Of a stretch of 64,000 nucleotides of DNA, positions 26,774 to 40,226 are shown in pieces; position 1 is the stretch's first letter, and each line of letters opens with the position of its first letter. The DNA comes from Opitutus terrae PB90-1. GTDB lineage: Bacteria; Verrucomicrobiota; Verrucomicrobiia; Opitutales; Opitutaceae. The stretch spans positions 310,001 through 374,000 of the forward strand of contig NC_010571.1 in assembly GCF_000019965.1 (NCBI RefSeq), read 5' to 3'. The notes beneath the pieces were generated by a model, which worked only from the letters and a program-made list of their open reading frames with translations, was not told the origin of the DNA and ran no database searches. The translations under genes were made by a program, and so were the position numbers.

Positions 26774-26798
26774 GGAATAATCCAGTGCGGCGAACGTC
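26774..26798 (+). promoter_or_regulatory. ECF-type promoter for the GT-C gene (GGAAT-N16-CGTC)
   Basis: GGAAT at 26774-26778, a 16-nt spacer, CGTC at 26795-26798. The ATG of the next gene is at 26807, only 8 nt after the -10. It is one of six sites of this form in 26.7-37.2 kb, all in the right orientation for the gene that follows. Confidence 0.65.
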
Positions 26799-26806
26799 TC
26801 ATCCCA

Positions 26807-28171
26807 ATGCCTGCGCAACTGGGACGTTCGATCGACGATCACAAATCCTCGCCCTCGGACGGAGTCCGGCTCGCTGGCATCGTCACCGCGGTGGCCTGGG
26901 GTTTTCTTGCGTGCCGCTCGCACACCTCCCACACGGCGCTGCTGGCGGCGATGCTCGCTGCGGTCGCGATCGCGTGGCTGGCGCTCGGCTGGGCGTGGAG
27001 GCGAGTCACGCTGCGCCATTCCCGCGAGATTCTGTTGTTCGCCCTACTCTTCCGGTCAGCCGCTTTCTTCGCGCTTCCGGTGATGGAGGACGACTACCAC
27101 CGTTTCCTTTGGGACGGCTATCGGTTCGCGGTCACCGGCGATCCTTATGCCAAACCACCGCAAGCGCACTTTTCCGACGACACGATTCCTCCGAAATTTC
27201 GCGGCGTGCTCGACCGGATCAACCATCCGGACGTGCCAACGATCTATGGGCCGCTGCTGCAATGGGCCTTTCGGCTGAGCCACGGAATCGCGCCCGCGCA
27301 GCTCTGGCCGTGGAAACTGATTCTGCTCGCGGCCGAGGCGACGACGATCGTGGTGCTCTGGGCCGGCTTGGGCGCGCGCGGCCGGCTGCTGCTGGCATGG
27401 TGCCCGCTGGCGATTTTCGAGACGGGGTTCAACGCCCACCCGGACGCGCTCGCGATCATGCTGCTCGTGCTGTCGTGGCGATGGTCCCGGAAATCGCTCT
27501 CGGTGGCCGCCGGTTTGGCGGCCGGACTCGCCGTCGCCACCAAGGTCTTCGCGCTGCTCATCATCCCGTTCGTGTTGTGGCGGCTGGGCCGTCGGGCGTG
27601 GGCGGCTGCGCTGGGGACGATCGTCCTGCTTTACGCGCCCTTCTGGTTGCGCGGAAGCGCGGCCGATCTCGCCGGACTGCGTGCGATGGCCGGCGAGTGG
27701 GAATTCAATTCGAGCCTCTTCGCCATCGCCAAGGCAGTGCTGCCGCTCGACATGGCCCGGGCGCTGTGCGGACTCGCCTTCGGTGTGGTCTGGCTCGCGC
27801 TGCTGCGGCGGTGGGCCACCTCATCGGATCGATCGCGCGCTATGGTCCGCGGGCTGCCGCCGGGCGAATGGATTTATGGTGCCTTTCTGCTGCTCTCCGC
27901 GACGGCGAATCCCTGGTATTTCCTGTGGCTCTGGCCGTTCGTCGCCGCACGTCCATCCAGCATCGGCCTCGCTGCGCTGGCGGCCGTGAGCCTGGCGTAT
28001 GTCACCGGCTTGAACCTCGGCGACGGCTCTCTCGGAAGTTTCGAGCACCCCGCCTGGCTGCGGCCGCTCGAGTTCGGTCTCATAGGCTGCGCCGCGTGCT
28101 GGGACGCGCGGAAACAAAAAACCCGCCCGGGAACACTCCCGGACGGGTCCGCGTCTCGCCAAGCCTGGTGA
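26807..28171 (+). CDS. GT-C family polytopic glycosyltransferase (mannosyltransferase-like)
   Basis: 454 residues from the ATG at 26807. The frame extends to 26609, but the terminator and ECF-type promoter lie in that extension. About ten membrane helices. After the first two helices comes PVMEDDYHRFLWDGYRFAV (Glu94, Asp95, Asp96, Trp102), the acidic first extracytoplasmic loop typical of GT-C enzymes that use polyprenyl-phosphate sugars (GT87/ArnT-like). GFNAHPDALAIMLLVL and NPWYFLWLWPF are later family-like blocks. Acceptor unknown. Its promoter type suggests it belongs to the arsenosugar regulon. The 3' end overlaps the terminator of the opposite gene. Confidence 0.75.
   Translation: MPAQLGRSIDDHKSSPSDGVRLAGIVTAVAWGFLACRSHTSHTALLAAMLAAVAIAWLALGWAWRRVTLRHSREILLFALLFRSAAFFALPVMEDDYHRFLWDGYRFAVTGDPYAKPPQAHFSDDTIPPKFRGVLDRINHPDVPTIYGPLLQWAFRLSHGIAPAQLWPWKLILLAAEATTIVVLWAGLGARGRLLLAWCPLAIFETGFNAHPDALAIMLLVLSWRWSRKSLSVAAGLAAGLAVATKVFALLIIPFVLWRLGRRAWAAALGTIVLLYAPFWLRGSAADLAGLRAMAGEWEFNSSLFAIAKAVLPLDMARALCGLAFGVVWLALLRRWATSSDRSRAMVRGLPPGEWIYGAFLLLSATANPWYFLWLWPFVAARPSSIGLAALAAVSLAYVTGLNLGDGSLGSFEHPAWLRPLEFGLIGCAACWDARKQKTRPGTLPDGSASRQAW
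28121..28148 (-). terminator. intrinsic terminator for the minus-strand OMP gene
   Basis: Read on the minus strand: ACCCGTCCGGGA-GTGT-TCCCGGGCGGGT followed by six T (28120-28115). The stem is 12 bp with one mismatch. It lies inside the 3' end of the convergent GT-C gene, so the two transcripts overlap here. Confidence 0.85.
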
Positions 28172-29026
28172 TCAGAATTTGAAAGGCAGGCTGATGCTGA
28201 AATTGTAGATGGTCGCATCACCGGTGTTTCGCACCGTGCCCATTCTTTCGGCCACGAGGAACCGATAGCTGCGTCCGCCGCCGTCGGTAAACGCCAGCCC
28301 GCCTTCGACGAACTGCGTGATCTCCTTCACCCCGGGGAAGCCGAAGCTCGTGCCGAAACCCGGTCCGCCGATGTCGCCACCGCTCAGGCCCTGCGTCCGC
28401 CGATAGCCGATGTTGACGCCGAACGCACCGAATTGCTTCGCCAGGCCCGCGGTGCCGAAGAGGTCGTCGGGCACGCCGTGGTTGCGATTCCGATACCCCA
28501 GCTCGCCGTAGGCGGCGAAACCGTCGCCGAACGATTTGCCGGCCGCGAGCGACGTTTCGAAGCCACTCGCGCCGTCGCCGGGATTGATCGGCGGCAGCGT
28601 CGTTGGCACGTCGTAGTTGCCCGCAAAGATCGCACCGACGCGCAAGGTCAGCGCCGGCCGCTCCGCGGTTTCCTGAAGGATTGCGTAAGTCAGCCCCAGT
28701 TGCGAGTCGTCGCGGCCGCTGCGTTTGAAATTCGCGCCCGGCGGCGAGAATTTCACCTCGGTGTAACCGACGCTGGCGTCGAGCGCGAAGCCGGGCGCGA
28801 GCCCATAGTCGAAGCGCAGGGAACTCGTGCGCTGCGTGATGTCGTCCGGAAGCGACATCCGCGCCGTCCCGGCGTAGAAGGTGTCGTAGGACTGGAAGGT
28901 GTAGTTCGGCGTGACGACCAGCTCGCCGGGCTCGGCGAGCCAGATATTTTGGGCGGAGCCGGTGTGGGCGGCCGCCAGGCCAGCGACCGAGGCGAGCGTG
29001 AGTTTGAGGAGCGAGGAAATGTTCAT
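28172..29026 (-). CDS. outer-membrane beta-barrel protein, phenol-degradation MetA-like
   Basis: 284 residues from the ATG at 29026 (MNISSLLKLTLASVAGLAAA, a signal peptide). The frame extends 13 residues further without homology. Alternating hydrophobic strands with aromatic girdles (ELVVTPNYTFQSYDTFY, SLRFDYGLAPGFALDASVGY, FAAYGELGYRNRN) and a terminal Phe (FSISLPFKF) mark a beta-barrel OMP. The pattern resembles the 'MetA-pathway of phenol degradation' putative transporters. Co-directional with and 35 nt after the small cytochrome-like gene. I infer an export or uptake channel for this cluster's products. Confidence 0.7.
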   Translation of the reverse strand: MNISSLLKLTLASVAGLAAAHTGSAQNIWLAEPGELVVTPNYTFQSYDTFYAGTARMSLPDDITQRTSSLRFDYGLAPGFALDASVGYTEVKFSPPGANFKRSGRDDSQLGLTYAILQETAERPALTLRVGAIFAGNYDVPTTLPPINPGDGASGFETSLAAGKSFGDGFAAYGELGYRNRNHGVPDDLFGTAGLAKQFGAFGVNIGYRRTQGLSGGDIGGPGFGTSFGFPGVKEITQFVEGGLAFTDGGGRSYRFLVAERMGTVRNTGDATIYNFSISLPFKF

Positions 29027-29061
29027 GAAGGGAGTGGAGGTTTTTGGACGTGTGCAGCGGA

Positions 29062-29427
29062 TCACTTCTTCATCGGGAAGCGCTGCTCGACGAAATACTC
29101 GAGCGCCTCGAGCTGCGCGTCGCTCAGCTTGCCGGCGAGGGCCGGCAGGTCCTTTTCCCGCATGGCCTCGGCGGGCAGTTTCCTTTGCGCAGCCTGCAAT
29201 CGTGGCCGCTGCGCGTCGGCCTCACCGCCGCCGGGCGTCATGGCTGCGCCTTCGTAGACCTTCTGGCCGAGGCCGTATTTCGCACGATCCAGTTTCATGC
29301 CGCTGGTGGATTTCGCCGGCGGGGATGGCGGGCGGCCGGCGTAGCTGCCCGACGCGAAAGCGGGCACGGCGGCCGTCGCCCCGAAGAGCGCGGCGAGGAG
29401 AGTGAGACACACGGAGGATTTTCTCAT
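29062..29427 (-). CDS. small exported cytochrome-c-like protein lacking a heme motif
   Basis: 121 residues with signal peptide MRKSSVCLTLLAALFGATAA...FA. The body reads KYGLGQKVYEGAAMT, then LPALAGKLSDAQLEALEYFVEQRF, which is the start and end pattern of class I cytochrome c (YxxGxxxYxxxC...; LSDxxLxALxxYV). There is no CxxCH and no Cys after the signal peptide, so it cannot bind heme c covalently. It is either a degenerate cytochrome or a scaffold. Its promoter (29467-29491) is of the same ECF type as the rest of the cluster. Function unknown. Confidence 0.6.
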   Translation of the reverse strand: MRKSSVCLTLLAALFGATAAVPAFASGSYAGRPPSPPAKSTSGMKLDRAKYGLGQKVYEGAAMTPGGGEADAQRPRLQAAQRKLPAEAMREKDLPALAGKLSDAQLEALEYFVEQRFPMKK

Positions 29428-29466
29428 GACGAGTTCGTTTGGTTTAGGTTGGGAATGCGTCGATGT

Positions 29467-29491
29467 GACGACCGACGGCGCGGCTTATTCC
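29467..29491 (-). promoter_or_regulatory. ECF-type promoter for the cytochrome-like/OMP pair (GGAAT-N16-CGTC)
   Basis: On the minus strand GGAAT is at 29491-29487, the spacer is exactly 16 nt, and CGTC is at 29470-29467. The ATG at 29427 follows 39 nt later, so this is the only site of the six with an appreciable leader. It faces away from the sigma-factor operon. Confidence 0.6.
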
Positions 29492-29524
29492 ATCACCCGC
29501 GCAAACCGCGCGAACCGCCGACGG

Positions 29525-29559
29525 GAGCGGCCGCGGAATAAAGCGGCCGCTCGACATTC
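29525..29559 (+). promoter_or_regulatory. probable autoregulatory ECF-type promoter with GC hairpin, upstream of the sigma gene
   Basis: GGAATAAA (29535-29542) is the loop of a perfect 10-bp stem GAGCGGCCGC / GCGGCCGCTC (29525-29534 and 29543-29552). Sixteen nt after GGAAT lies ATTC (29556-29559), a poor match to CGTC. The GTG start is 8 nt further on, the same geometry as the other sites. Low -10 match makes it the weakest member. Confidence 0.45.
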
Positions 29560-29567
29560 ATATCCGC

Positions 29568-30116
29568 GTGGACGATGTGGACTACGAACAAGCCGTGGCG
29601 CTGTATCACGAGGATCTTTACCGGTTCGCGTTCAGCCTCGCGCGCAATCCCGACGATGCCTGCGACCTGACCCAGGAATCCTACTGCCGGCTGCTCACGA
29701 AGGGCGGCCAGCTGCGCGATCGCACGAAAGTGAAGTCCTGGCTCTTCACCACCCTCTACCGGACGTTCCTCGGCCGGAAACGCCACGAGAAGTATTTTCC
29801 CCACGCGGAGCTTTCCACGGTGGAGCGGGAACTGCCCGCACTGACGCCCGATCTCGTCGACAAGATCGATGGCGACATCGTCATCGAAGCGCTGAACGAA
29901 ATCGACGAACACCACCGCACGCCGCTGGTGCTCTTCTACCTGCAAAGCCTCTCCTATCGCGAGATCGCGGAGCTGCTCGACGTGCCGATCGGCACGGTCA
30001 TGTCGCGCCTCTCGCGCGGCAAAGCCCTCCTCCGCGCGCTCGTCACCGCGCGCGCCTTGCAGCCCGCCACCTCCAACGTGATTCCGCTGCCCGCCCTGCA
30101 GCGGCTCAGAAACTAA
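29568..30116 (+). CDS. ECF-family RNA polymerase sigma factor
   Basis: 182 residues with region 2 (ALYHEDLYRFAFSLARNPDDACDLTQESYCRLL, residues ~10-42; the DLTQE block contacts the -10) and region 4 (LNEIDEHHRTPLVLFYLQSLSYREIAELLDVPIGTVMSRLSRGK, ~110-155; helix-turn-helix for the -35), both split over several helices. There is no region 3, as in all ECF sigmas. GTG start at 29568. The anti-sigma gene starts 5 nt after the stop, and arsM lies 6 nt beyond that, so the sigma factor heads the arsenosugar operon. I infer that it recognises the GGAAT-N16-CGTC sites nearby. Confidence 0.9.
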   Translation: MDDVDYEQAVALYHEDLYRFAFSLARNPDDACDLTQESYCRLLTKGGQLRDRTKVKSWLFTTLYRTFLGRKRHEKYFPHAELSTVERELPALTPDLVDKIDGDIVIEALNEIDEHHRTPLVLFYLQSLSYREIAELLDVPIGTVMSRLSRGKALLRALVTARALQPATSNVIPLPALQRLRN

Positions 30117-30121
30117 ACGCC

Positions 30122-30859
30122 ATGAACCGAGAGGAAGCTCAATTCATCCTCGGAGCCTATCGTCCCAACAGCGAGGATGCACAGGATCCGCAGTTTCAAG
30201 AGGCGCTCACGCTCGCGCGACGGGACCCGGGACTTGGCCACTGGTTCGCGGAGCAGCAGGCGATCGATCGCATCCTGGCCGCGAAGGTTCGTGCCCGCCC
30301 GATTCCACCGCAACTGAAGACCCAGCTCCTGCTCGCGCGTGCCACCGGCGCGTGCCAGCCCCGCTGGCGCCGGCCGGTGTGGCTCGCCGTCGCGGCGTGT
30401 GCTGCGCTCCTGTTCGTCGCCGCGGGCACGCTTCTGTCGCGCCGCGTCCACGCCGCCCGTCTCGCGGAATTTCGCAGCGCGATGGTGGCGGCCTCGCTCG
30501 AACGGCGTAACCACGCCGACGTGGAGGGGCTCGACGCCCAGGGCTATCAGCACTGGCTGGTCGCGCATCGCGGGGATCCCGATTTCGTGCTTCCTCCCCG
30601 CCTGGCCGAACGAGGGATCTCGGCGTGCAAGGTCGTCGAGTGGCGGCAGAGCCGCGTGACGATGCTTTGCTTCCAATTCTCCGGCGGTCACGTCGACGTT
30701 TTTGTCGTCAACGCCGCGGACCTCCCTCGCCTGCCGCTCGGCCCCACGCCCGCGCTGTTCGCCGACGGCAAGGTGACGAGTGCCGCGTGGCGGCACGAGG
30801 GGAAGATCTATCTTGCCGCCAGCGCGATGCCCTCGGCGGACCTGCAGAAACTGCTTTAG
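30122..30859 (+). CDS. single-pass membrane anti-sigma factor (putative)
   Basis: 245 residues from the ATG at 30122. A cytoplasmic N-terminal part (1-84), one membrane helix at about 86-104 (VWLAVAACAALLFVAAGTLL) and a periplasmic domain follow. The position directly after an ECF sigma gene, and the topology, make it the anti-sigma. There is no zinc-type H-x3-C-x2-C motif in the cytoplasmic part. The periplasmic domain has exactly two cysteines, Cys169 (ISACKVVEW) and Cys183 (VTMLCFQF), fourteen residues apart, flanked by FSGGHVDVFVV. A thiol-based sensing role, for instance for oxidants or trivalent arsenic, is inference only. Confidence 0.7.
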   Translation: MNREEAQFILGAYRPNSEDAQDPQFQEALTLARRDPGLGHWFAEQQAIDRILAAKVRARPIPPQLKTQLLLARATGACQPRWRRPVWLAVAACAALLFVAAGTLLSRRVHAARLAEFRSAMVAASLERRNHADVEGLDAQGYQHWLVAHRGDPDFVLPPRLAERGISACKVVEWRQSRVTMLCFQFSGGHVDVFVVNAADLPRLPLGPTPALFADGKVTSAAWRHEGKIYLAASAMPSADLQKLL

Positions 30860-30865
30860 CCCACC

Positions 30866-32008
30866 ATGCCCACCGAACACGCCGTCAAGCAACGCTACGC
30901 CGCCGCCGCGAAAGCTCCCGAGGCCGCACTCTGCTGCCCCGTCGATTACGACCGTCGCTACCTCGAGATCATTCCCGCCGAGGTCATCGAAAAAGACTAC
31001 GGCTGCGGCGACCCGTCACGTTACGTCAAACCCGGCGAGACAGTCCTGGATCTCGGCAGCGGCACGGGAAAGATCTGCTTCATCGCCGCGCAGGTCGTCG
31101 GCCCGCAGGGCCGCGTGATCGGCGTCGACATGACCGATGAGATGCTCGAGGTCGCCCGGCGCAACGCGCCGGTCGTCGCCGAACGCCTCGGCTACGCCAA
31201 CGTCGAGTTTCGCAAGGGTCGCATTCAGGACCTCGCGCTCGATCTGGAGCAACTCGATCGCGAGTTGGCGCGGCGCCCCATTTCCGACGCCACCTCGTTT
31301 CTCGCCGCGCAAGACCTGGCCGACGAACTGCGCGTTCGCGCGCCACTCGTCGCGGACGGCACGATCGATGTCGTTGTCTCCAATTGTGTGCTCAACCTGG
31401 TCGAACCACGCGCGAAGCGCACGCTCTTCGAACAGATTTCCCGCGTGCTGCGGCGAGGCGGCCGCGCCGTCATCTCCGATATCGTGGCCGACGAGCCGGT
31501 GCCGGACGCCTTGCAGCAGAATCCGGAACTGTGGAGCGGCTGCATCAGCGGCGCACTCACCGAGGAGGAGTTTCTGCAGGCATTCGCCGATGCGGGCTTT
31601 CACGGCATCCAGATGCTCAAGCGCGACACCGCACCCTGGCGCACCGTCGAAGGCATCGAATTTCGCTCGGTCACGGTGCAGGCCTTCAAGGGCAAGCAGG
31701 GGCCTTGCCTCGAGCGCAACCAGGCGGTCGTCTACCTCGGGCCGTTCAAGGAGGTGCTCGACGACGACGGCCATCGCCTGGTGCGCGGTCGCCGCCACGC
31801 CGTGTGCGACAAGACCTACCGGCTTTACCAGCAGGAGCCTTATCGTACCCACTTCGCCGCCATCGATCCGCTGCACGAAGTCCCGCTGACAGACGCGAAG
31901 CCGTTCGACTGCGCCGGCGCTCGTCTGCGGCATCCGCGAGAAACCAAGGGCCAGGACTACGATGCGACGACGACCGCCGCGCAATCCCGCGCCGGAGGTT
32001 GCTGCTGA
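30866..32008 (+). CDS. arsM: arsenite S-adenosylmethionine methyltransferase ArsM (arsenosugar-type)
   Basis: ArsM methylates As(III) with SAM. The SAM motif is [10 protein letters not shown] (residues 60-69) with the acidic ribose binder GVDMTDEML. The four arsenic-binding Cys positions of the family are present: Cys23/24 (ALCCPVDY), Cys47 (DYGCGDP), Cys174 (VVSNCVLNL) and Cys226 ([10 protein letters not shown]). A 35-residue insert between Rossmann strands ([14 protein letters not shown]...) fits the arsenosugar-associated subgroup. The protein is 380 residues long and ends in a GGCC pair. Start ATG at 30866, 6 nt after the anti-sigma stop; the stop overlaps the next ATG by one base. Confidence 0.93.
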
Positions 32009-32793
32009 TGGCCACCTCCGCTCGTCATATTCGCCGGGCGCTGATCGCGATCGTGCTCGAAGTCTCCCTGGGATGCGCGGGCTTCGCGCAATCGTCGGCG
32101 ATCGAGATCCGCAGTCCCGCCCATCACGTCACGCTGCTCGAGCTCTATACGTCCGAAGGCTGCAGCAGTTGTCCGCCCGCAGAGGCCTGGGTTGGCGGTC
32201 TGCGCAACGATGCGGGTTTGTGGACCGAGTTCGTGCCGCTCGCGTTTCACGTGGACTACTGGGATCACCTCGGCTGGCAGGATCCCTGGGCGGAACGGAG
32301 CTACGCGGATCGGCAGCGGCGGTATGCGGCGGAATGGGGCTCCGGCACCATTTACACGCCCGGATTCGTGCTCGACGGACGGGAATGGCGCGACTGGCGG
32401 AGCCAGCGCACCGCGCTGAAGGCGGTGGCCGCGAAGGCTGGTGTGCTGACCGCGTCATCGACCGATGGCCGACAATGGGCGATCACCTTCGATGCCGCCG
32501 ACGCACCGGATCGCGCCGACGTCCATGCCGCGCTGCTTTGGAGTGGCGTGCATTCCGATGTGAAAGCTGGTGAAAACCGCGGCCGGCATCTGTCGCACGA
32601 TTTCGTGGTCGCCGCTCTGACGCGCGCCCCCCTCACCCGACGGGGCGATGCGCTCCACGGCGAGGTGGCGCTGCGACCGGATCGGAAACCTCCCGCCGAG
32701 GCCCGGCTCGCTCTGGCCGTGTGGGTCACTCGCCCCGGCGAGTTGTCGCCGCTACAGGCGGCCGGCGGCTGGCTGCCTGGCGCCGCAGATTGA
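32008..32793 (+). CDS. DUF1223 thioredoxin-fold protein, exported
   Basis: 261 residues from the ATG at 32008, which shares its A with the arsM stop. A signal peptide (~1-28, LIAIVLEVSLGCAGFAQ) is followed by VTLLELYTSEGCSSCPPAEAW, a thioredoxin-like redox motif (Cys52-x-x-Cys55), and AFHVDYWDHLGWQDPWA, both hallmarks of DUF1223. It is periplasmic. In this operon it could keep arsenicals or partner proteins reduced, but that is inference from context. 17 nt to the next gene. Confidence 0.88.
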   Translation: MATSARHIRRALIAIVLEVSLGCAGFAQSSAIEIRSPAHHVTLLELYTSEGCSSCPPAEAWVGGLRNDAGLWTEFVPLAFHVDYWDHLGWQDPWAERSYADRQRRYAAEWGSGTIYTPGFVLDGREWRDWRSQRTALKAVAAKAGVLTASSTDGRQWAITFDAADAPDRADVHAALLWSGVHSDVKAGENRGRHLSHDFVVAALTRAPLTRRGDALHGEVALRPDRKPPAEARLALAVWVTRPGELSPLQAAGGWLPGAAD

Positions 32794-32810
32794 GCACATC
32801 TCACGTGGCC

Positions 32811-33926
32811 ATGATCACTGTCATCGTTCTCCTCGCCGTCTGTTTTCTCGCCTACGCCAACGGCGCCAACGACAACTTCAAGGGCGTCGCCAGCCTCTTC
32901 GGCAGCGGCACGACGAGCTATCGCACCGCGATTTCCTGGGCCACCGTCACGACGTTCGCCGGCAGCGTGGCGGCGATTTTCCTCGCCGAAGCGCTCGTCG
33001 GCAAGTTCTCCGGCAAGGGTTTGGTGCCCGATGCGCTCACAGCCTCGCCGCCCTTCCTTCTCGCCGTCGCGCTCGGCGCCGGCGCGGCGGTGATACTTGC
33101 CACGCTGCTCGGGTTTCCTGTTTCCACGACCCACGGGCTCATTGGCTCTCTGGTCGGGGCCGGCACCGCGGCGGCGGGGCCCGAGGTCGACTTTGCCGTG
33201 CTGGGCCAGGCCTTCGTGCTTCCGCTGCTCGTGAGTCCTCTCCTCGCGATCGCCACCGGTGCCTGCGTCTATGGGACGCTTCATCGCGGGCGAATCCGCT
33301 CCGGAATCACACGAAACACCTGCGTGTGCGGCGGTCTGGAGAATCCCGTCGCTTTGCCAGTCGTCGCCAGCGGAGCCGCGGCATTTTCCCGTCCATCGTC
33401 GACGCTTACTCTGACCGTCGGTGACAACGCGGCCTGTGCCGCGCGTTACGACGGACGCGTGTTCGGTGTCGACGCAGGTCGGCTGCTCGACGGCCTGCAC
33501 CTGCTCAGTGCCGGCGCGGTGAGTTTCGCCCGCGGATTGAACGACACGCCGAAGATCGCGGCGCTGCTGTTCGCGGTTCATGCGCTCGATCTCCGCTGGG
33601 GACTCGCCGCTGTCGCGAGTGCGATGGCCATCGGCGGCTTGCTGAATGCGCGCAAGGTCGCCGACACCATGAGCCATCGCCTCACCTCGATGAACCCGGG
33701 GCAGGGCTTCGCCGCCAACCTCTCCACCGCGGCGCTGGTCACGACGGCGAGCCTGCACGGCCTGCCGGTCAGCACGACGCACGTGAGCGTGGGCGCACTG
33801 CTCGGCATGGGCCTGGTAACTCGACAAACGAGATGGAAGCCCGTTGTCGGCGTGCTCGCCGCGTGGGTTGTCACGCTGCCCTGCGCCGCCCTTCTGGGCG
33901 CGCTGGCCTACGTCCTGATCCGGTGA
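32811..33926 (+). CDS. PiT-family inorganic phosphate (arsenate?) permease
   Basis: 371 residues and about ten helices. Both inverted signature repeats are present: YANGANDNFKGVASLFGSG near the N-terminus and RGLNDTPKIAALLFA in the second half, each followed by a GFPVSTTHGLIGSLVG / LPVSTTHVSVGALLG motif. The family co-transports phosphate with H+ or Na+. The central hydrophilic loop carries TRNTCVCGGLENP and DNAACAARYDG, cysteine-containing and not needed in plain phosphate permeases. Arsenate uses PiT carriers, so supply of substrate to ArsM is plausible. The longer frame from 32721 lies inside the previous gene. Confidence 0.88.
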   Translation: MITVIVLLAVCFLAYANGANDNFKGVASLFGSGTTSYRTAISWATVTTFAGSVAAIFLAEALVGKFSGKGLVPDALTASPPFLLAVALGAGAAVILATLLGFPVSTTHGLIGSLVGAGTAAAGPEVDFAVLGQAFVLPLLVSPLLAIATGACVYGTLHRGRIRSGITRNTCVCGGLENPVALPVVASGAAAFSRPSSTLTLTVGDNAACAARYDGRVFGVDAGRLLDGLHLLSAGAVSFARGLNDTPKIAALLFAVHALDLRWGLAAVASAMAIGGLLNARKVADTMSHRLTSMNPGQGFAANLSTAALVTTASLHGLPVSTTHVSVGALLGMGLVTRQTRWKPVVGVLAAWVVTLPCAALLGALAYVLIR

Positions 33927-33945
33927 ACACGTTTCGTCCCGCTCC

Positions 33946-35322
33946 ATGCGCCAGCGACTCATTCTTATGCTCAAATTTCCGCGGCCCGGCACGGTGAAAA
34001 CGCGGCTGGTGCCGGCGCTGGGCGCGCACCGCGCCTGCGAGCTCTACTGCTCGCTCGTCCGACACACCCTCACCGAGGTTGAACGTTTCAAGGCCAGCGC
34101 TGAAGTCGCGGTCGAAGCGCGCCTCACGGACGCGCCGGATGAGGCCGCCGCTCGCGCTTGGCTCGGCGGTGACATCGTGATTCGGGACCAGGACGACGGC
34201 GATCTCGGCCAGCGCATGGATCGCGCCGTGCAGGTCGCCTTCGCGGAAGGCGCCGAAACGGTCGCCGTGATCGGCGGAGATTGTCCGCAGCTTACGGACC
34301 GTCATCTCGCGTCCGCATTCGCCGCCCTCGAACAGGCCGAAGCCGTCATCGGCCCGGCGGCCGACGGCGGTTACTATCTGATCGGCCTCCGCCGGCCGCT
34401 GCCGACGCTTTTCCGTGGCGTTTCCTGGGGCGGCGCCGACGTGCTGGCCCAGACGCTCGCCAACGCCCGTGCGTTCGCAATCGAGATATCGCAGCTCGCG
34501 ACTCTGCGCGACTTGGACGTGCCCGACGATCTTCCGCTCTGGACGCAAACTCCGGTCGCGCGCGCTGCAGGTCGTGGCGGCGTGTCGGTCGTCATTCCGA
34601 CGCTCAACGAACAGGAGCAGCTACCCGCCACGCTCGCCGCGGCGCGCCGGGAACATCCGCACGAGATCATCGTCACGGACGGAGGCAGCACCGACCGAAC
34701 GCTTGAAATCGCGCGCCGTCATGATGCCCTCGTGCTCGAGGGGTCGGCAGGCCGGGCCCGCCAGATGAATCGCGGGGCGGCCGTGGCCACGGGCGAGTAT
34801 CTGCTTTTCCTGCACGCGGACACAGTGCTGCCCGCGATCTATCCGTCGCTCGTGAAAACGACGCTCGCCCGACCGGGCGTCGTCGGAGGCGCTTTCAGGT
34901 TTGCCGTCTCCGGTGAGTTTCTCGGCCGCCGACTGATCGAGCGCGGTACAAACTGGCGCGCGCGCTACCGGCAACTGCCCTACGGCGACCAGGGAATCTT
35001 CGTGCGCGCCGACACTTTCGCGCAGCTCGGCGGTTATGCCGACTTGCCGATCATGGAGGACTACGAGTTCGTGCAGCGGCTACGCCGATTCGGCCGGCTC
35101 GCACTCGCGCCTGCCGCGGCGCTGACCTCCGGGCGCCGCTGGCGCGAGCTTGGACCGTTGCGCACGCTGCTCGTCAATCAGCTCGTGATTCTGGGGTATT
35201 GCCTCGGCGTGTCGCCGGTCAGGCTCGCCGACTGGTATCATCGGCCTCGGTCGTGGCGGACGTTCCGACCCACGCGGCCAGGGAATAAAGTCCCGGTTAC
35301 GACGTCCCTCTTTCCAGAATGA
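33946..35322 (+). CDS. fused arsenosugar-type glycosyltransferase (TIGR04282-like + TIGR04283-like)
   Basis: 458 residues with two enzymes in one chain. Residues 1-200 are the DUF2064/TIGR04282 part (LILMLKFPRPGTVKTRL, VAVIGGDCPQLTDRHLASAF, VIGPAADGGYYLIGLRRP). Residues ~212-440 are a GT2 fold of the TIGR04283 type (VSVVIPTLNEQEQLPATL, IIVTDGGSTDRT, LLFLHADTVLP, YGDQGIFVRADTF, ADLPIMEDYEFVQRLRR). These two families occur next to arsM/arsS in other genomes and are named for arsenosugar biosynthesis. Here they are joined by a short linker (WTQTPVARAAGRG). The stop overlaps the arsS ATG by 4 nt, and the ECF-type promoter for arsS lies inside the last 14 codons. Confidence 0.9.
   Translation: MRQRLILMLKFPRPGTVKTRLVPALGAHRACELYCSLVRHTLTEVERFKASAEVAVEARLTDAPDEAAARAWLGGDIVIRDQDDGDLGQRMDRAVQVAFAEGAETVAVIGGDCPQLTDRHLASAFAALEQAEAVIGPAADGGYYLIGLRRPLPTLFRGVSWGGADVLAQTLANARAFAIEISQLATLRDLDVPDDLPLWTQTPVARAAGRGGVSVVIPTLNEQEQLPATLAAARREHPHEIIVTDGGSTDRTLEIARRHDALVLEGSAGRARQMNRGAAVATGEYLLFLHADTVLPAIYPSLVKTTLARPGVVGGAFRFAVSGEFLGRRLIERGTNWRARYRQLPYGDQGIFVRADTFAQLGGYADLPIMEDYEFVQRLRRFGRLALAPAAALTSGRRWRELGPLRTLLVNQLVILGYCLGVSPVRLADWYHRPRSWRTFRPTRPGNKVPVTTSLFPE
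35282..35306 (+). promoter_or_regulatory. ECF-type promoter for arsS, inside the glycosyltransferase 3' end
   Basis: GGAAT 35282-35286, 16-nt spacer, CGTC 35303-35306. The arsS ATG is at 35319, 12 nt after the -10. It would give arsS an extra promoter inside the operon. Confidence 0.6.
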
Positions 35323-36263
35323 TCTCTTTTGACCAAAAACTCGCCGCGCACGGCCTGACGTTGACCCGCCGCAGCGTGCAAACGCTCCAGATCAACGTCG
35401 GCCGGAAGTGCAATCAGGCCTGCCGTCACTGTCACGTGGATGCTGCGCCGTGGCGGACGGAGATGATGGACGCGACGGTCGCCGCACGGGTGTGCGAATG
35501 GATTCGGGCGCACCGCCCCGAGGTCGTCGATATCACCGGCGGCGCGCCGGAGTTGAGCGAGCATTTCCGCACGTTCGTCGAGACCGCCCGCGACTGCGGG
35601 TGCCGGGTGATCGATCGCAACAATCTCACGATCATCGAAACGCCCGCCTTCGCGTGGCTGCCGGACTATCTCGCCGCTCACGAAGTCGAGGTGGTCGCGT
35701 CGCTGCCCTGCTACAGCGCGGAGAACGTCGACGCGCAACGCGGCGAAGGCGTGTTCGCGAAAAGCATCCGGGCCCTGCGCAAGCTCAACGCCGTTGGTTA
35801 CGGCACGCGCCTGCCGCTCAGCCTCGTCTACAATCCGCTCGGCGCGAAACTTCCGCCGCCGCAGCCCGAACTGGAAGCCGAGTACAAGGCGGAACTGCGC
35901 ACGCGTTTCGGCATCGAGTTCACGCGGCTCTTCGCCCTCGTGAACCAGCCTATCGCCCGTTTCGCGCAGGACCTGCGCGAGCATGGCGAGTGGGACGCCT
36001 ATCTCGAACTCCTCGCCAACAGCTTCAATCCTGCGACGGTGGACGGTCTCATGTGTCGCTCGACGCTGAGCGTCGGCTGGCGCGGCGAAATCTACGACTG
36101 CGATTTCAACCAGATGCTCGGCCTGCAGCTGCGCAACGGCAAGGCGCTCCACCTATGGGGCGTGACGCCCGCCTATCTGGCCGGCGGTGCGATTCTCACC
36201 GGAGCGCACTGCCTCGCATGCACGGCCGGAGCGGGCAGCAGTTGCACGGGCGCGCTCAATTGA
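35319..36263 (+). CDS. arsS: arsenosugar biosynthesis radical SAM enzyme ArsS
   Basis: ArsS adds the 5'-deoxyadenosyl group of SAM to dimethylarsinite, the step after ArsM. The radical-SAM cluster motif is Cys31-x3-Cys35-x2-Cys38 in GRKCNQACRHCHVDAAP, the CxxxCxxC form. VVDITGGAPELSEHFR is the GGE-like SAM-binding strand. CYSAENVDAQRGEGVF and LSLVYNPLGAKLPPPQ are ArsS blocks. The C-terminal Cys-rich end, HCLACTAGAGSSCTGALN, matches the DUF3641 tail that in many relatives contains selenocysteine. Here all positions are Cys and no in-frame TGA is read through. 314 residues, complete. Confidence 0.95.
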   Translation: MISFDQKLAAHGLTLTRRSVQTLQINVGRKCNQACRHCHVDAAPWRTEMMDATVAARVCEWIRAHRPEVVDITGGAPELSEHFRTFVETARDCGCRVIDRNNLTIIETPAFAWLPDYLAAHEVEVVASLPCYSAENVDAQRGEGVFAKSIRALRKLNAVGYGTRLPLSLVYNPLGAKLPPPQPELEAEYKAELRTRFGIEFTRLFALVNQPIARFAQDLREHGEWDAYLELLANSFNPATVDGLMCRSTLSVGWRGEIYDCDFNQMLGLQLRNGKALHLWGVTPAYLAGGAILTGAHCLACTAGAGSSCTGALN

Positions 36264-36327
36264 ATCGGCCAACGCCGGCACGATTCGGGTTTTGACTCGC
36301 GATTTCCGTGCTCGGTCGGCGCGGCGT

Positions 36328-37125
36328 TCAGCCCGTGCTGCGCCACCGACTCGTGCAGCATGCGGCGGAGGATCGCCCGGTCTCCACGCCGCCGCGGGCG
36401 AATCGCAGTTTCGCCACCGTCGTCAGAATCCCCCAGCCCGCGCGCCAAACGCCGGCAAGGTTGCCCGAAATCTTCGACTCGCCGGCGGCCCGCGGATGGA
36501 AATGCACCGGCACCTCCGCAATCCGCAGTCCGTGCTCGAGCGCGCGCACCTGCATCTCGACATTCCAGCCGAAGCCGCGATCCCGTAACGCCAGTCGTTC
36601 GAAGGCGTCCCGTCGGATCACGCGCAGCGATGCGAGGTCGCGAAACCGTCGTCCCCAGCCGAGCGCGATCAACGCGCAACCCAGGGCATTGCCGAATCGC
36701 TGCATCGGCGTCAGCCGACGGCGTGAGTCGGGCCGGGTGACGCGCTCCCCGAGCACGAGCGCCGCGCCGCTGTCGATCTCGGTTTGAAACGCCGCCGCCG
36801 CGCCCTCGATCCGGTCGCTGCCGTCGGCGGAGCTGAACAGGATCCATTCGATGGTTGCCGGCAAATCGCGGGAACCGGTCCACGCCGCCGCGCCGTATCC
36901 GCGCCGCGGTTCCGTGCGTACCTCCGCACCGGCTTCACGCGCCCGCGCCGCCGTGGCATCGGTGCTCCCGTTGTCCACGACGCGAACGAGCGCAGCCCCC
37001 CACTTTTGCCAGTAGTGCACCGTGTCGGCGATGCACGGTGCTTCGTTCAACGCCGGGATCAATACGGCGGTGCGTCCCAGGAAATCGGGATTCACCGCAG
37101 TGGATCGACGAAGGAGAGGCGTCAT
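36328..37125 (-). CDS. glycosyltransferase family 2, dolichyl-phosphate-mannose-synthase-like
   Basis: 265 residues. The GT-A opening is TAVLIPALNEAPCIADTVHYW, then VVDNGSTDAT, then LFSSADGSDRIEGA (DxD-like) and FRDLASLRVIRRDAF. This is the DPM1-like layout without C-terminal membrane helices. VPVHFHPRAAGESKISGNL is the conserved GxSK block. The C-terminal 20 residues (SSAACCTSRWRSTG) are unusual. Its promoter (37136-37160) is of the cluster's ECF type and back to back with that of DUF547, so I place it in the arsenosugar system, perhaps adding a lipid-phosphate sugar. Convergent with arsS. Confidence 0.85.
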   Translation of the reverse strand: MTPLLRRSTAVNPDFLGRTAVLIPALNEAPCIADTVHYWQKWGAALVRVVDNGSTDATAARAREAGAEVRTEPRRGYGAAAWTGSRDLPATIEWILFSSADGSDRIEGAAAAFQTEIDSGAALVLGERVTRPDSRRRLTPMQRFGNALGCALIALGWGRRFRDLASLRVIRRDAFERLALRDRGFGWNVEMQVRALEHGLRIAEVPVHFHPRAAGESKISGNLAGVWRAGWGILTTVAKLRFARGGVETGRSSAACCTSRWRSTG

Positions 37126-37135
37126 CGCCAGATGG

Positions 37136-37160
37136 GACGCCGCGACCGGACGGTTATTCC
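37136..37160 (-). promoter_or_regulatory. ECF-type promoter for the GT2 gene (GGAAT-N16-CGTC)
   Basis: Minus strand: GGAAT at 37160-37156, 16-nt spacer, CGTC at 37139-37136. The ATG at 37125 follows after 10 nt. Its -35 lies 3 nt from the -35 of the plus-strand promoter at 37164. Confidence 0.65.
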
Positions 37161-37163
37161 GCC

Positions 37164-37188
37164 GGAATAAATCCGGCGGGTCGCCGTC
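37164..37188 (+). promoter_or_regulatory. ECF-type promoter for the DUF547 operon (GGAAT-N16-CGTC)
   Basis: GGAAT 37164-37168, 16-nt spacer, CGTC 37185-37188. The ATG at 37199 is 10 nt later. The element also forms a perfect 8-bp hairpin (CCGCCGGA-ATAAA-TCCGGCGG, 37159-37179). Confidence 0.65.
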
Positions 37189-37198
37189 TCATGCTCGC

Positions 37199-37966
37199 AT
37201 GATTCCGTTCCGCAGTTTGCTGTTGCTCCTCGCTGGTCTGGCCTCGCTCGCGCCCATCGCCCGCGCGTTCGACCACAGCCACGCGCTTTTCGATCGCGTG
37301 CTGAAAGCGCAGGTCCGCGACGGGCGGGTCAACTATGCGGCGCTGCAGGCCGCGCCAAAACCGCTCGACGACTACCTGGCGCAGCTCGCGGCCGTCACCA
37401 CGACCGAGTTCGATGGCTGGTCGCAGCCGGAACGCCTGGCGTTTCTCATCAATCTCTACAACGCCGCTACGTTGAAGCTCATCATCGATCACTATCCGGT
37501 GAAGAGCATCCGCAGCATCGGCTGGCTGCCGGGCGCCGCGTGGAAGCAGGAGGGAGTCGAGGTCTTCGGCCGAAAGATCTCACTCGACGAACTGGAGCAC
37601 GGCATCATTCGCCGGGACTACCGGGAGCCTCGCGTGCACTTCGCCCTCGTCTGCGCGGCGCGCGGCTGCCCGCCGTTGCGCGAAGAGACGTTCGTCGGCG
37701 CACACCTCGACGCACAGCTCGAAGACCAGGGAAAAAGATTCCTAGGCACCGCAGCGAAGAACCGGGTCGATGCCGCGAGCCGCATCGTTTATCTTTCGCC
37801 GATCTTCAAGTGGTTCGCGGAGGACTTCGGCGGGACGGACGGTGCGGTGCTCCAGTTCGTGGCACCCTTCTTGTCCGAGGAGGCGCGACGCGTGCTCGCT
37901 GCCGGCGACTGCAAGATCAGCTACACCGACTATGACTGGTCGCTGAACGATCAGGGGAGCCCATGA
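37199..37966 (+). CDS. exported DUF547-domain protein
   Basis: 255 residues from the ATG at 37199. The earlier frame start (37022) would cross the promoter and the opposite gene. Signal peptide MIPFRSLLLLLAGLASLAPIA, cleaved near ARAFDH. DUF547 blocks: RLAFLINLYNAATLKLI, ISLDELEHGIIRRDY and VHFALVCAARGCPPLREE, with a conserved Cys pair in the last. Function unknown; the domain recurs with arsenosugar genes. Its stop overlaps the TVP38 start by 4 nt, so it heads a three-gene operon (to 40226). Confidence 0.88.
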   Translation: MIPFRSLLLLLAGLASLAPIARAFDHSHALFDRVLKAQVRDGRVNYAALQAAPKPLDDYLAQLAAVTTTEFDGWSQPERLAFLINLYNAATLKLIIDHYPVKSIRSIGWLPGAAWKQEGVEVFGRKISLDELEHGIIRRDYREPRVHFALVCAARGCPPLREETFVGAHLDAQLEDQGKRFLGTAAKNRVDAASRIVYLSPIFKWFAEDFGGTDGAVLQFVAPFLSEEARRVLAAGDCKISYTDYDWSLNDQGSP

Positions 37967-38652
37967 GCATCGTCCGGAAAATCGTCCTCGCGCTCGGGAT
38001 TGCGGCGGTGCTGGCAGCGCTGGTGGTCTTCGATGCGCGAGCGCTTCTGCACGAAGCGCTCGGATGGATCGAACGTCTCGGAGCGTGGGCGCCCGTTGGG
38101 TTTATCCTGCTTTACATCGCCGCCACGGTTCTCTTCGTGCCCGGCTCGGCGCTCACGCTCGGCGCTGGCGCGCTCTTCGGCGTCGGGTTCGGTTCGGCGC
38201 TCGTCTCGGTGGGCGCCACGCTGGGCGCGACGGCGGCGTTTCTGGTCGGGCGGTATTTTGCCCGCGACTGGGTGGCGGCGAAGATCGCGGGCAACGCGTC
38301 CTTCGCCGCGATCGACCGTGCCGTCGCCCGCGAGGGCTGGAAGATTGTCGGACTCACGCGGCTTTCCCCGGCGTTTCCCTTCTCGCTGCTCAATTATGCC
38401 TTTGGGCTCACCCGCGTCTCGCTGCGCGACTACGTGCTTGCCTCGTGGATCGGCATGATGCCGGGCACGGTGATGTATGTGTATCTCGGTTCCCTCGCGC
38501 GGGCCGCGACCCAGCGCCAGCGCACCCCGGCCGAATGGGCCCTCTACGGCGTGGGTCTCGTCGCGACGGTCCTCGTGACGGTCTTCGTCACCCGCCTTGC
38601 GCGCGCAGCCCTCGCCAAACGCTCCTCGCCGTCGGTCGTGCCTCAGCCATGA
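37963..38652 (+). CDS. TVP38/TMEM64 (SNARE-associated, DedA-like) membrane protein
   Basis: 229 residues and about six helices. The central SNARE-associated motif is intact: FVPGSALTLGAGALFGVGFG, GATLGATAAFLVGRYFAR and LTRLSPAFPFSLLNYAFGLT, followed by YVLASWIGMMPGTVMYVYLG. The family is thought to move lipids or small substrates across the inner membrane. The TVP38-oxidoreductase pairing is common in bacteria. Overlaps the genes on both sides by 4 nt. Confidence 0.9.
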   Translation: MSIVRKIVLALGIAAVLAALVVFDARALLHEALGWIERLGAWAPVGFILLYIAATVLFVPGSALTLGAGALFGVGFGSALVSVGATLGATAAFLVGRYFARDWVAAKIAGNASFAAIDRAVAREGWKIVGLTRLSPAFPFSLLNYAFGLTRVSLRDYVLASWIGMMPGTVMYVYLGSLARAATQRQRTPAEWALYGVGLVATVLVTVFVTRLARAALAKRSSPSVVPQP

Positions 38653-40226
38653 AACACCCGCCATTGCTTCAACCGTGGGATGAGCACAATCGCCGGCTGC
38701 AGGCGCACGTCCATCCGTCAGACTGGAAAAGTCCCACGCCAGCGCCGCGCTACAATCTCGTCGTGATCGGCGGTGGGACCGCGGGCCTCGTCACGGCGGC
38801 GGGTGCGGCCGGCCTTGGCGCGAAAGTCGCGCTCATCGAGCGCCACCTGCTCGGCGGCGACTGCCTGAATGTCGGCTGCGTGCCTTCCAAAGCGCTCATC
38901 CGTGCCGCACGGGCGGCGGCCGAGGCACGCGCGAGTGCCCGCTTCGGAGTGAAAATCACCGGCGAAGTGGCGGTGGACTTTTCCGCGGTGATGGAGCGGA
39001 TGCGCCGGCTGCGCGCCGACCTGAGTCCGCACGACTCCGCCGCGCGCTTTCGCGAGCTGGGCGTCGATGTCTTCATCGGCGAGGCGCGTTTCGCCTCCGG
39101 CGACACCGTGCAGGTCGGCGGGCAGGCGCTGCGCTTCGCCAAGGCAGTCATCGCCACGGGTGCGCGTGCCTCGGCTCCGCCCATCACCGGCCTGGCGGAG
39201 GTGCCTTATCTCACCAACGAAACCCTTTTCTCGCTGACCGAGTTGCCGCGCCGCCTCGCGATCGTCGGCGCCGGTCCGATCGGTTGCGAGATGGCGCAGG
39301 CTTTCGCTCGTTTCGGCGCGGAGGTCACACTGATCGAATCGGCGGCAGGCATTCTGCCGCGCGAGGATCGCGAGGCCGCCGAAATCCTGCGCGCCGCGCT
39401 CGAGCGCGACGGCGTCAGGATTCTCTGCGATGGACGGGACCTGAAGGTCGCCCGCGCTCCCGACGACGGTGTGATTTGGCAGCTCGCCTCGGCCGGCCAG
39501 CAACAGGCCGGCCACGCCGACCGGCTCCTCGTCGCCGTCGGCCGGGCGCCGAATGTCGAGGGACTCGGGCTCGAGGCCGCCGGAATCGCGTTCGGCCGGC
39601 AGGGGGTGAAGGTGGACGATTTCCTTCGGACAACGAACCGACGCGTCTACGCCTGCGGCGACGTGTGCTCGCGTTTCCAGTTCACGCATGCGGCCGACTT
39701 CATGGCGCGGATCGTCATCCAGAACGCTCTCTTCAAGGGTCGCCGCCGCGTCAGCGCGCTCACGATTCCGTGGTCGACCTATACCTCGCCGGAAGTGGCG
39801 CAGATCGGGCTCGGCCCCGCCGACGCGAAGGTGCGTGGTCTGGCGATGGACACCTTCACCCAGCCGCTCGCCAAAGTGGATCGGGCGATCCTCGACGACG
39901 AAGCGGACGGCTTCGTGCGGGTCCACGTGCGTCGGGGCACGGACCAGATCGTCGGGGCGACGGTGGTTGCCGCGCACGCCGGCGACACGATCGGCGAACT
40001 CTCGCTGGCCATGACCAACAAGATCGGTCTCGGCCGCGTCGGGGCCGCGATCCATCCCTACCCCACGCAGGCCGAAGCGATCCGCCGAGTCGGCGACCTC
40101 TACAGCCGCACCCGACTGACTCCGTGGGTGAAACGGGTTTTCTCCTGGTGGCTCGCGTGGCAACGGGCCGAGTTCGGCCAGCGCAGGTCACCGCAAGCAC
40201 GACCTCACCCGCTCATGGCGCCCTGA
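38649..40226 (+). CDS. FAD-dependent pyridine-nucleotide disulfide oxidoreductase, mercuric-reductase-like
   Basis: 525 residues. FAD motif VVIGGGTAGLVTAAG (residues 38-52), redox-active disulfide GGDCLNVGCVPSKAL (Cys72, Cys77), NAD(P)H motif LAIVGAGPIGCEMAQAF and second FAD motif RRVYACGDVCSRFQFTHAAD. The dimerisation domain keeps HPYPTQAE, whose His normally acts with the disulfide. There is no N-terminal heavy-metal-binding domain and no C-terminal Cys pair, so it is not a true MerA. It extends ~30 residues before the FAD motif. Probably reduces a disulfide or an arsenical intermediate; the substrate is not known. Confidence 0.9.
   Translation: MKHPPLLQPWDEHNRRLQAHVHPSDWKSPTPAPRYNLVVIGGGTAGLVTAAGAAGLGAKVALIERHLLGGDCLNVGCVPSKALIRAARAAAEARASARFGVKITGEVAVDFSAVMERMRRLRADLSPHDSAARFRELGVDVFIGEARFASGDTVQVGGQALRFAKAVIATGARASAPPITGLAEVPYLTNETLFSLTELPRRLAIVGAGPIGCEMAQAFARFGAEVTLIESAAGILPREDREAAEILRAALERDGVRILCDGRDLKVARAPDDGVIWQLASAGQQQAGHADRLLVAVGRAPNVEGLGLEAAGIAFGRQGVKVDDFLRTTNRRVYACGDVCSRFQFTHAADFMARIVIQNALFKGRRRVSALTIPWSTYTSPEVAQIGLGPADAKVRGLAMDTFTQPLAKVDRAILDDEADGFVRVHVRRGTDQIVGATVVAAHAGDTIGELSLAMTNKIGLGRVGAAIHPYPTQAEAIRRVGDLYSRTRLTPWVKRVFSWWLAWQRAEFGQRRSPQARPHPLMAP

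Follow-up and report, generated by a model that had tools for sequence, protein, structure and literature searches.

ECF sigma factors have been described at divergent promoters before. In Pseudomonas syringae, the available part of one article reports that HrpL holoenzyme at hrpJ represses the adjoining divergent hrpL promoter (PMC5263251), and in the general stress response, as far as the accessible text of a second article goes, promoters of one ECF sigma drive both divergent units of phyR / nepR-ecfG, while the -35 box of RpoE is given as GGAACTT (PMC8103513). A third article, in which both an ECF sigma and GGAATAA are mentioned, deals with Corynebacterium (PMC10012870); in the corresponding part of the CorE article no link to the system described here was found (PMC3107203). 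Searches of the literature found no report on divergently transcribed genes with overlapping ECF sigma promoters, although earlier reports are possible, nor any joining an ECF sigma factor with arsenosugar, an ECF sigma factor with DUF547, or arsenosugar with Opitutus.

The locus considered here lies in a window of 64,000 nucleotides, positions 310001-374000 of the Opitutus terrae PB90-1 genome, in which a glycosyltransferase gene of family GT2 and an operon encoding a DUF547 protein, a TVP38 protein and a FAD oxidoreductase, with overlapping ends, are transcribed divergently. Compared with hrpL/hrpJ, as portrayed in the accessible text, the likeness is that an ECF holoenzyme at one divergent promoter affects its neighbour there; the differences are that the neighbour in that system is a sigma-54 promoter, whereas the window pair is apparently read by one ECF sigma, and that in the window pair the -35 boxes nearly touch. 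The phyR / nepR-ecfG arrangement, within the same limits of the source, shares the use of one ECF sigma for both divergent units, but with another sigma and other genes. Like ECF promoters generally, as these excerpts present them, the window sites pair a -35 of the GGAA type with a short -10 whose gap is fixed, but here the -35 is GGAATAA and the -10, at gap 14, is CGTC. The promoter pair is of a kind already known, ordinary in kind but unusually compact.

Direct reading and motif scans agree on two complete GGAATAA-N14-CGTC sites at 37136-37188, which face outward on opposite strands and occupy 37160-37136 on the minus strand and 37164-37188 on the plus strand (Table 1). The earlier note had described two full sites with -35 boxes 3 bp apart on opposite strands, and this is confirmed; the 13-bp core that it took the sites to share does not exist, as they have zero bases in common. 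The two 7-bp boxes and the 3-bp spacer together make a 17-bp inverted repeat in which the box centres are 10 bp apart. Only 73 bp separate the ATG of GT2 (37125, minus) from that of DUF547 (37199, plus), and on both sides the ATG lies 10 nt downstream of CGTC.

Table 1. Coordinates of the probable paired promoters, the neighbouring genes and further sites in the window
Feature	Position	Strand	Evidence or remark
Lone site ahead of the GT87-like gene (26807-28171)	26774..26798	+	motif scans
Site ahead of the genes for a small protein (29062-29427) and an outer-membrane-like protein (28172-29026)	29467..29491	-	motif scans
Probable own promoter of the sigma gene, GGAATAA-N14-ATTC	29535..29559	+	GTG start 8 nt further
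ECF sigma factor, likely reader of the sites	29568..30116	+	PF04542, PF08281, PF04545 above cut-off
Likely membrane-anchored anti-sigma factor	30122..30859	+	gene position, one hydrophobic stretch by eye, weak profile matches
Sigma-linked genes: ArsM-like methyltransferase, DUF1223, PiT, TIGR04282-TIGR04283 fusion, ArsS	30866..36263	+	profile matches
Single site before arsS (35319-36263)	35282..35306	+	motif scans; lies within the end of the preceding reading frame
GT2 family glycosyltransferase	36328..37125	-	PF00535 37.8 bits (cut-off 23.3)
-10 element CGTC, then CCAT, GT2 promoter, gap 14	37136..37139	-	motif scans and locus comparison
-35 box GGAATAA, leftward GT2 promoter	37154..37160	-	GGAATAA in 5/6 operon loci compared; GGAATAG in L149
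Spacer GCC, 3 bp, between the -35 boxes	37161..37163	none	3 bp in 5/6 loci including the window; 6 in one
-35 box GGAATAA, rightward DUF547 operon promoter	37164..37170	+	same in 6/6 operon loci including the window
-10 element CGTC, then TCAT, DUF547 operon promoter, gap 14	37185..37188	+	motif scans and locus comparison
DUF547 protein, signal-peptide-like start by eye	37199..37966	+	PF04784 94.4 bits (cut-off 27)
TVP38/VTT-domain membrane protein, overlaps DUF547 end	37963..38652	+	PF09335 100.7 bits (cut-off 33.9)
FAD-containing MerA-like oxidoreductase	38649..40226	+	NF004991 827.5 bits (cut-off 620); ATG start chosen by us, overlaps TVP38 end

How rare are such sites? The window holds six matches to GGAATAA-N12-22-GTC against 0.30 expected, two of the six using one box, and none of 100 shuffled windows reached this number. 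The stricter GGAATAA-N13-16-CGTC has five copies in the whole genome (5,957,605 bases, single contig), all with N14 and none outside 26774-37188 of the window, so that the five exact sites fit in 10.4 kb around the ECF sigma gene; the reversed control has two copies in the genome. The paired core GGTTATTCC-N1-20-GGAATAA occurs once in the genome and its reversed control not at all, which excludes the objection raised in the earlier note, that of an unrelated repeat found at many non-promoter places. A hairpin or terminator was considered and rejected, because both inferred start sites are downstream of the core, which has no second copy in the genome. With a looser pattern of GGAATA, TC in the corresponding position and then NYAT, in which CGTC is not required, eight genomic places are found (control 0): five in the window, one of them before the sigma gene, and three outside it, all reading GGAATAC. 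The arsS site, which reads CGTCCCTC, is not caught by this pattern. A palindrome of the TTATTCC/GGAATAA shape is not special by itself: among 384 genomes sampled from the class, 25 contain TTATTCC-N0-8-GGAATAA and 18, by an eye count, contain the reversed control. The significance of the pair derives instead from the -10 elements, the context and the orthologues. Bare GGAATAA-N13-15-CGTC has at least one copy in 171 of 200 genomes of the family, and motif counts in relatives are for this reason unusable as evidence and were dropped, the palindrome being near its control.

The sigma factor encoded in the window has 182 amino acids and a TIGR02937 score of 70.2 bits (cut-off 42.9); with regions 2 and 4 and no region-3 match it has the composition of an ECF sigma factor (group 4). 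The likely anti-sigma factor gives weak matches to NF052375 (18.6 bits, cut-off 100) and PF11859 (20.3 bits, cut-off 33.2). Three orthologues have a box matching that of the probable sigma-gene promoter, two of them with gap 14 and the third with gap 15; the -10 is ATTC, not CGTC, in the window, while the orthologues have GTTC and CTTC and, in the one with gap 15, ACTC. Sampling of 200 genomes of the bacterial family yielded a sigma match at E 1e-20 in 113. The 30 best-scoring loci, the window included, were scanned over a stretch that began 130 nt upstream of the inferred first codon and ended 40 nt into the match, and GGAATA was found before the sigma gene in 26 of them and not in the other four. 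TC follows at gap 14 in 15 loci and at gap 15 in 11, where chance would give roughly 1 locus per 25 by a hand estimate; this split may point to two specificity subclasses in the family. Only four of the 30 loci are the window sigma or stand at orthologue level (73-77% identity for the orthologues). The rest are 45-58% identical and paralogue-like, mostly with NCTC at the -10, so that the link of CGTC to the window sigma rests on gene neighbourhood. In distant sigma clusters (44-50% identity), GGAATAA-N14-CGTC stands before the sigma gene in L127, L128, L129 and L141, and before arsS in L128, L129 and L141.

The paired sites thus combine a GGAA-type -35 with a -10 at a fixed gap, as ECF promoters do, and a like box precedes the sigma gene at most of the family's loci compared. 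Because of the clustering near the sigma gene, the boxes before related sigma genes and the conserved pair, both sites are very probably ECF promoters and the membership of GT2 in the ECF regulon is well supported; the local window sigma is most likely the reader of both. The sequence evidence accordingly sides with the earlier note, which had called both sites ECF-type, had assigned them to GT2 and to the DUF547-TVP38-oxidoreductase operon, and had tied GT2 to the system of the rightward operon: five exact sites lie near the sigma gene, the GT2 site matches that of the operon and the pairing is conserved.

Searches with DUF547, starting from six aligned proteins, returned 272 relatives, and the best 80 of the 272 loci were examined. 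TATTCC-N1-6-GGAATA occurs in five of the 80, always before the DUF547 operon, with a spacer of 3 bp in L142, L143, L144 and L166 and of 6 bp in L149; no paired core within N1-6 was found in the other 75. Conservation of the core in relatives, proposed earlier as a check, is thus seen as a pair kept before the operon in five of them. GT2 lies on the left of the pair in L142, L144 and L149 and is truncated in L166, where the GT2 match starts at residue 72 and the leftward -10 has been lost with the 5' part of the gene. In our reading, the operon in L166 opens with an N-terminus that resembles DUF547, and TVP38 comes next; to the eye, the DUF547 gene there seems to have been split or rearranged. 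In L143, whose promoter region closely resembles the one in L144, the pair has no identifiable GT2 gene next to it; this locus was treated as a relic and rejected as an independent case. In L143 (7500-10100) the leftward GT2 promoter box is still present without an adjoining GT2 gene, as if the gene had been recently lost. Across the window and these five relatives, which are kin, so that counts of sides are not independent events, TC stands at gap 14 on 11 of the 11 sides counted, the left side of L166 having been dropped because its -10 is lost (11 of 12 with it); within the range of gaps 9-20, TC is found on 0 sides at gaps 13 and 15 and on at most 5 of 11 elsewhere. The -10 on the GT2 side is weaker in some relatives, with CATC in L143 and L144 and none in L166, and on the DUF547 side the -10s of the relatives are weaker in part (CTTC, GCTC, GCTC, CATC, ACTC).

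With GT2 as the query and a threshold of E 1e-45, 252 genomes of the family gave 21 relatives. Paired boxes within N1-14 are present at six of the 21, that of the window included, and at none of the other 15; four of these loci, G188, G053, G558 and G553, are L142, L144, L149 and L166 again and are largely duplicate evidence. The only new locus, G148, has a spacer of 7 bp, and the partner of GT2 there is by eye a FAD/iron-sulphur protein. At L158 and L160 GT2 is paired with the sigma gene across a spacer of 11 bp, a value that comes from direct reading, as the scan of 80 loci covered N1-6. On the sides of these last three loci TC stands at gap 14 in 0 of 6 and at gap 15 in 5 of 6. Elsewhere, in L122 (7264-8784; G139), a DUF547 gene is divergent from a sigma gene, with regulon-like boxes on both sides that are farther apart.

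Based on these observations, we consider it highly probable that the region between GT2 and DUF547 consists of two minimal back-to-back promoters of the ECF sigma encoded 7 kb away. In ECF systems an anti-sigma factor holds the sigma factor until a signal arrives. Release from the anti-sigma factor would free the sigma, which on either strand would recognise GGAATAA as its -35 and CGTC as its -10 (gap 14). It would start GT2 leftward and DUF547-TVP38-oxidoreductase rightward, along with its own operon, arsS, the gene of the small protein and the GT87-like gene. At high occupancy both promoters would probably compete for polymerase, because their upstream footprints would span a common 13-23 bp. 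The GT2 and DUF547 operon transcripts would be leaderless or nearly so, since the start codons lie 10 nt past the -10s. Five of the six window sites have their start codon 8-12 nt downstream of the -10, and at the sixth the distance is 39 nt, some of these codons being our choice. Known ECF promoters have their start site 6-9 nt past the -10, and given this distance we infer leaders of about 0-7 nt for five window mRNAs. The stretch 26774-37199 as a whole suggests a largely leaderless regulon, and earlier reports of ECF regulons of this type are possible.

What are the implications of such a pair? It would place GT2 and the DUF547-TVP38-oxidoreductase operon in one small ECF regulon with ArsS, and it yields a definition of the promoter used by a family of sigmas whose orthologues and paralogues were matched in 42 of 49 sampled genera. 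The 73-bp region is a clean test piece for interference of touching divergent promoters because it contains little besides the two promoters, and it comes with natural spacer variants of 3, 6, 7 and 11 bp, those of 7 and 11 bp with other partner genes.

The upstream edge of a bound polymerase usually lies at -40 to -45. Assuming these edges and inferred starts near 37128 and 37196, about 70 bp apart, the footprints of the two polymerases would share about 13-23 bp, and this overlap, together with boxes 10 bp or about one helical turn apart, makes simultaneous occupancy by two polymerases unlikely. Any effect of such exclusion would depend on occupancy. That the 3-bp spacing was selected, so that one holoenzyme at a time binds and fixes the ratio of GT2 to operon, seems to us somewhat unlikely: the box centres put both -35s on about one helix face, the spacer is 3 bp in five of six loci before the operon and the HrpL/hrpJ case, in the available account, provides a precedent (PMC5263251), but the spacer is 6 bp in L149 and 7 bp (G148) or 11 bp (L158/L160) with other partners, L143 retains both boxes though no GT2 gene was found beside them, and the constant 3 bp is explicable by shared descent. 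With spacers that vary among relatives, one set geometry for competition is not a general feature of such pairs, and the variation suggests that exact spacing is dispensable in places. The more elaborate proposal, in which the touching 17-bp -35 pair serves a single ECF sigma as a bidirectional start element, admits one polymerase at a time and yields two leaderless mRNAs in a ratio set by the -10s alone, with neither a regulator nor an untranslated leader, we hold to be unlikely. The pair is rather, we think with some confidence, a matter of compactness: two weak promoters would act independently in a divergent region of minimal length and would not interfere, because occupancy is low. The variable spacers fit this, starts near the -10 leave hardly any spare intergenic DNA and single sites occur elsewhere in the regulon; what it accommodates less well is the recurrence of the pair beside GT2 with different partners (the DUF547 operon, sigma in L158/L160, the protein judged by eye in G148), which exceeds what simple inertia suggests.

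The 17-bp inverted repeat could also be taken for an operator of a dimeric regulator, which is extremely improbable. Sites 26774 and 35282 are without a second half, the -10 stands at exactly gap 14 from each half of the repeat, and sigma is the only scanned cluster protein with a DNA-binding match above cut-off. A dyad operator, expected to present both half-sites at every target, was rejected on the strength of those two sites; since they have no inverted partner, half a palindrome suffices, and the palindrome is, to all appearances, simply what two adjoining -35 boxes look like. The reader of the paired promoters might be, also or instead, a paralogous ECF sigma encoded at about 4.9098 Mb of the host genome, which is 53% identical in protein to the window sigma and whose gene is preceded by a GGAATA -35, as at the paired sites. 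Its own -10 looks like GCTC at gap 15, unlike CGTC at gap 14, and all five exact GGAATAA-N14-CGTC sites cluster at the window sigma; we judge this reading quite unlikely and retain the local sigma as the reader.

The GT2 protein has AglJ as its top NCBIfam match, at 99.5 bits under a cut-off of 325, and the GT87-like gene, whose start codon is our choice, reaches 19.9 bits with PF09594 (cut-off 25). The site at 29467-29491 lies 43 bp from the opposite-strand box of the sigma promoter, and neither the small protein nor the outer-membrane-like protein behind it has a Pfam or NCBIfam match. The ArsM-like methyltransferase, the PiT transporter, the TIGR04282-TIGR04283 fusion and ArsS are grouped with the ECF sigma and likely anti-sigma pair. 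As in arsenosugar-type clusters, the window ArsS (TIGR04167, 422.3 bits, cut-off 300) and the TIGR04282/TIGR04283 glycosyltransferase domains exceed NCBIfam cut-offs, whereas the window ArsM falls under the arsenosugar ArsM cut-off (NF038099, 136.6 of 400 bits) and also under that of NF040538 (334.7 of 500 bits). At the paralogous sigma locus (L228 1501-1640; genome 4909670-4909809), GGAATAG with GCTC at gap 15 stands before the gene, and an opposite-strand GGAATAC site, one of the three looser-pattern places outside the window, has its box 70 bp further up, ~110 bp before the gene. Cross-talk of these boxes with the window regulon is possible.
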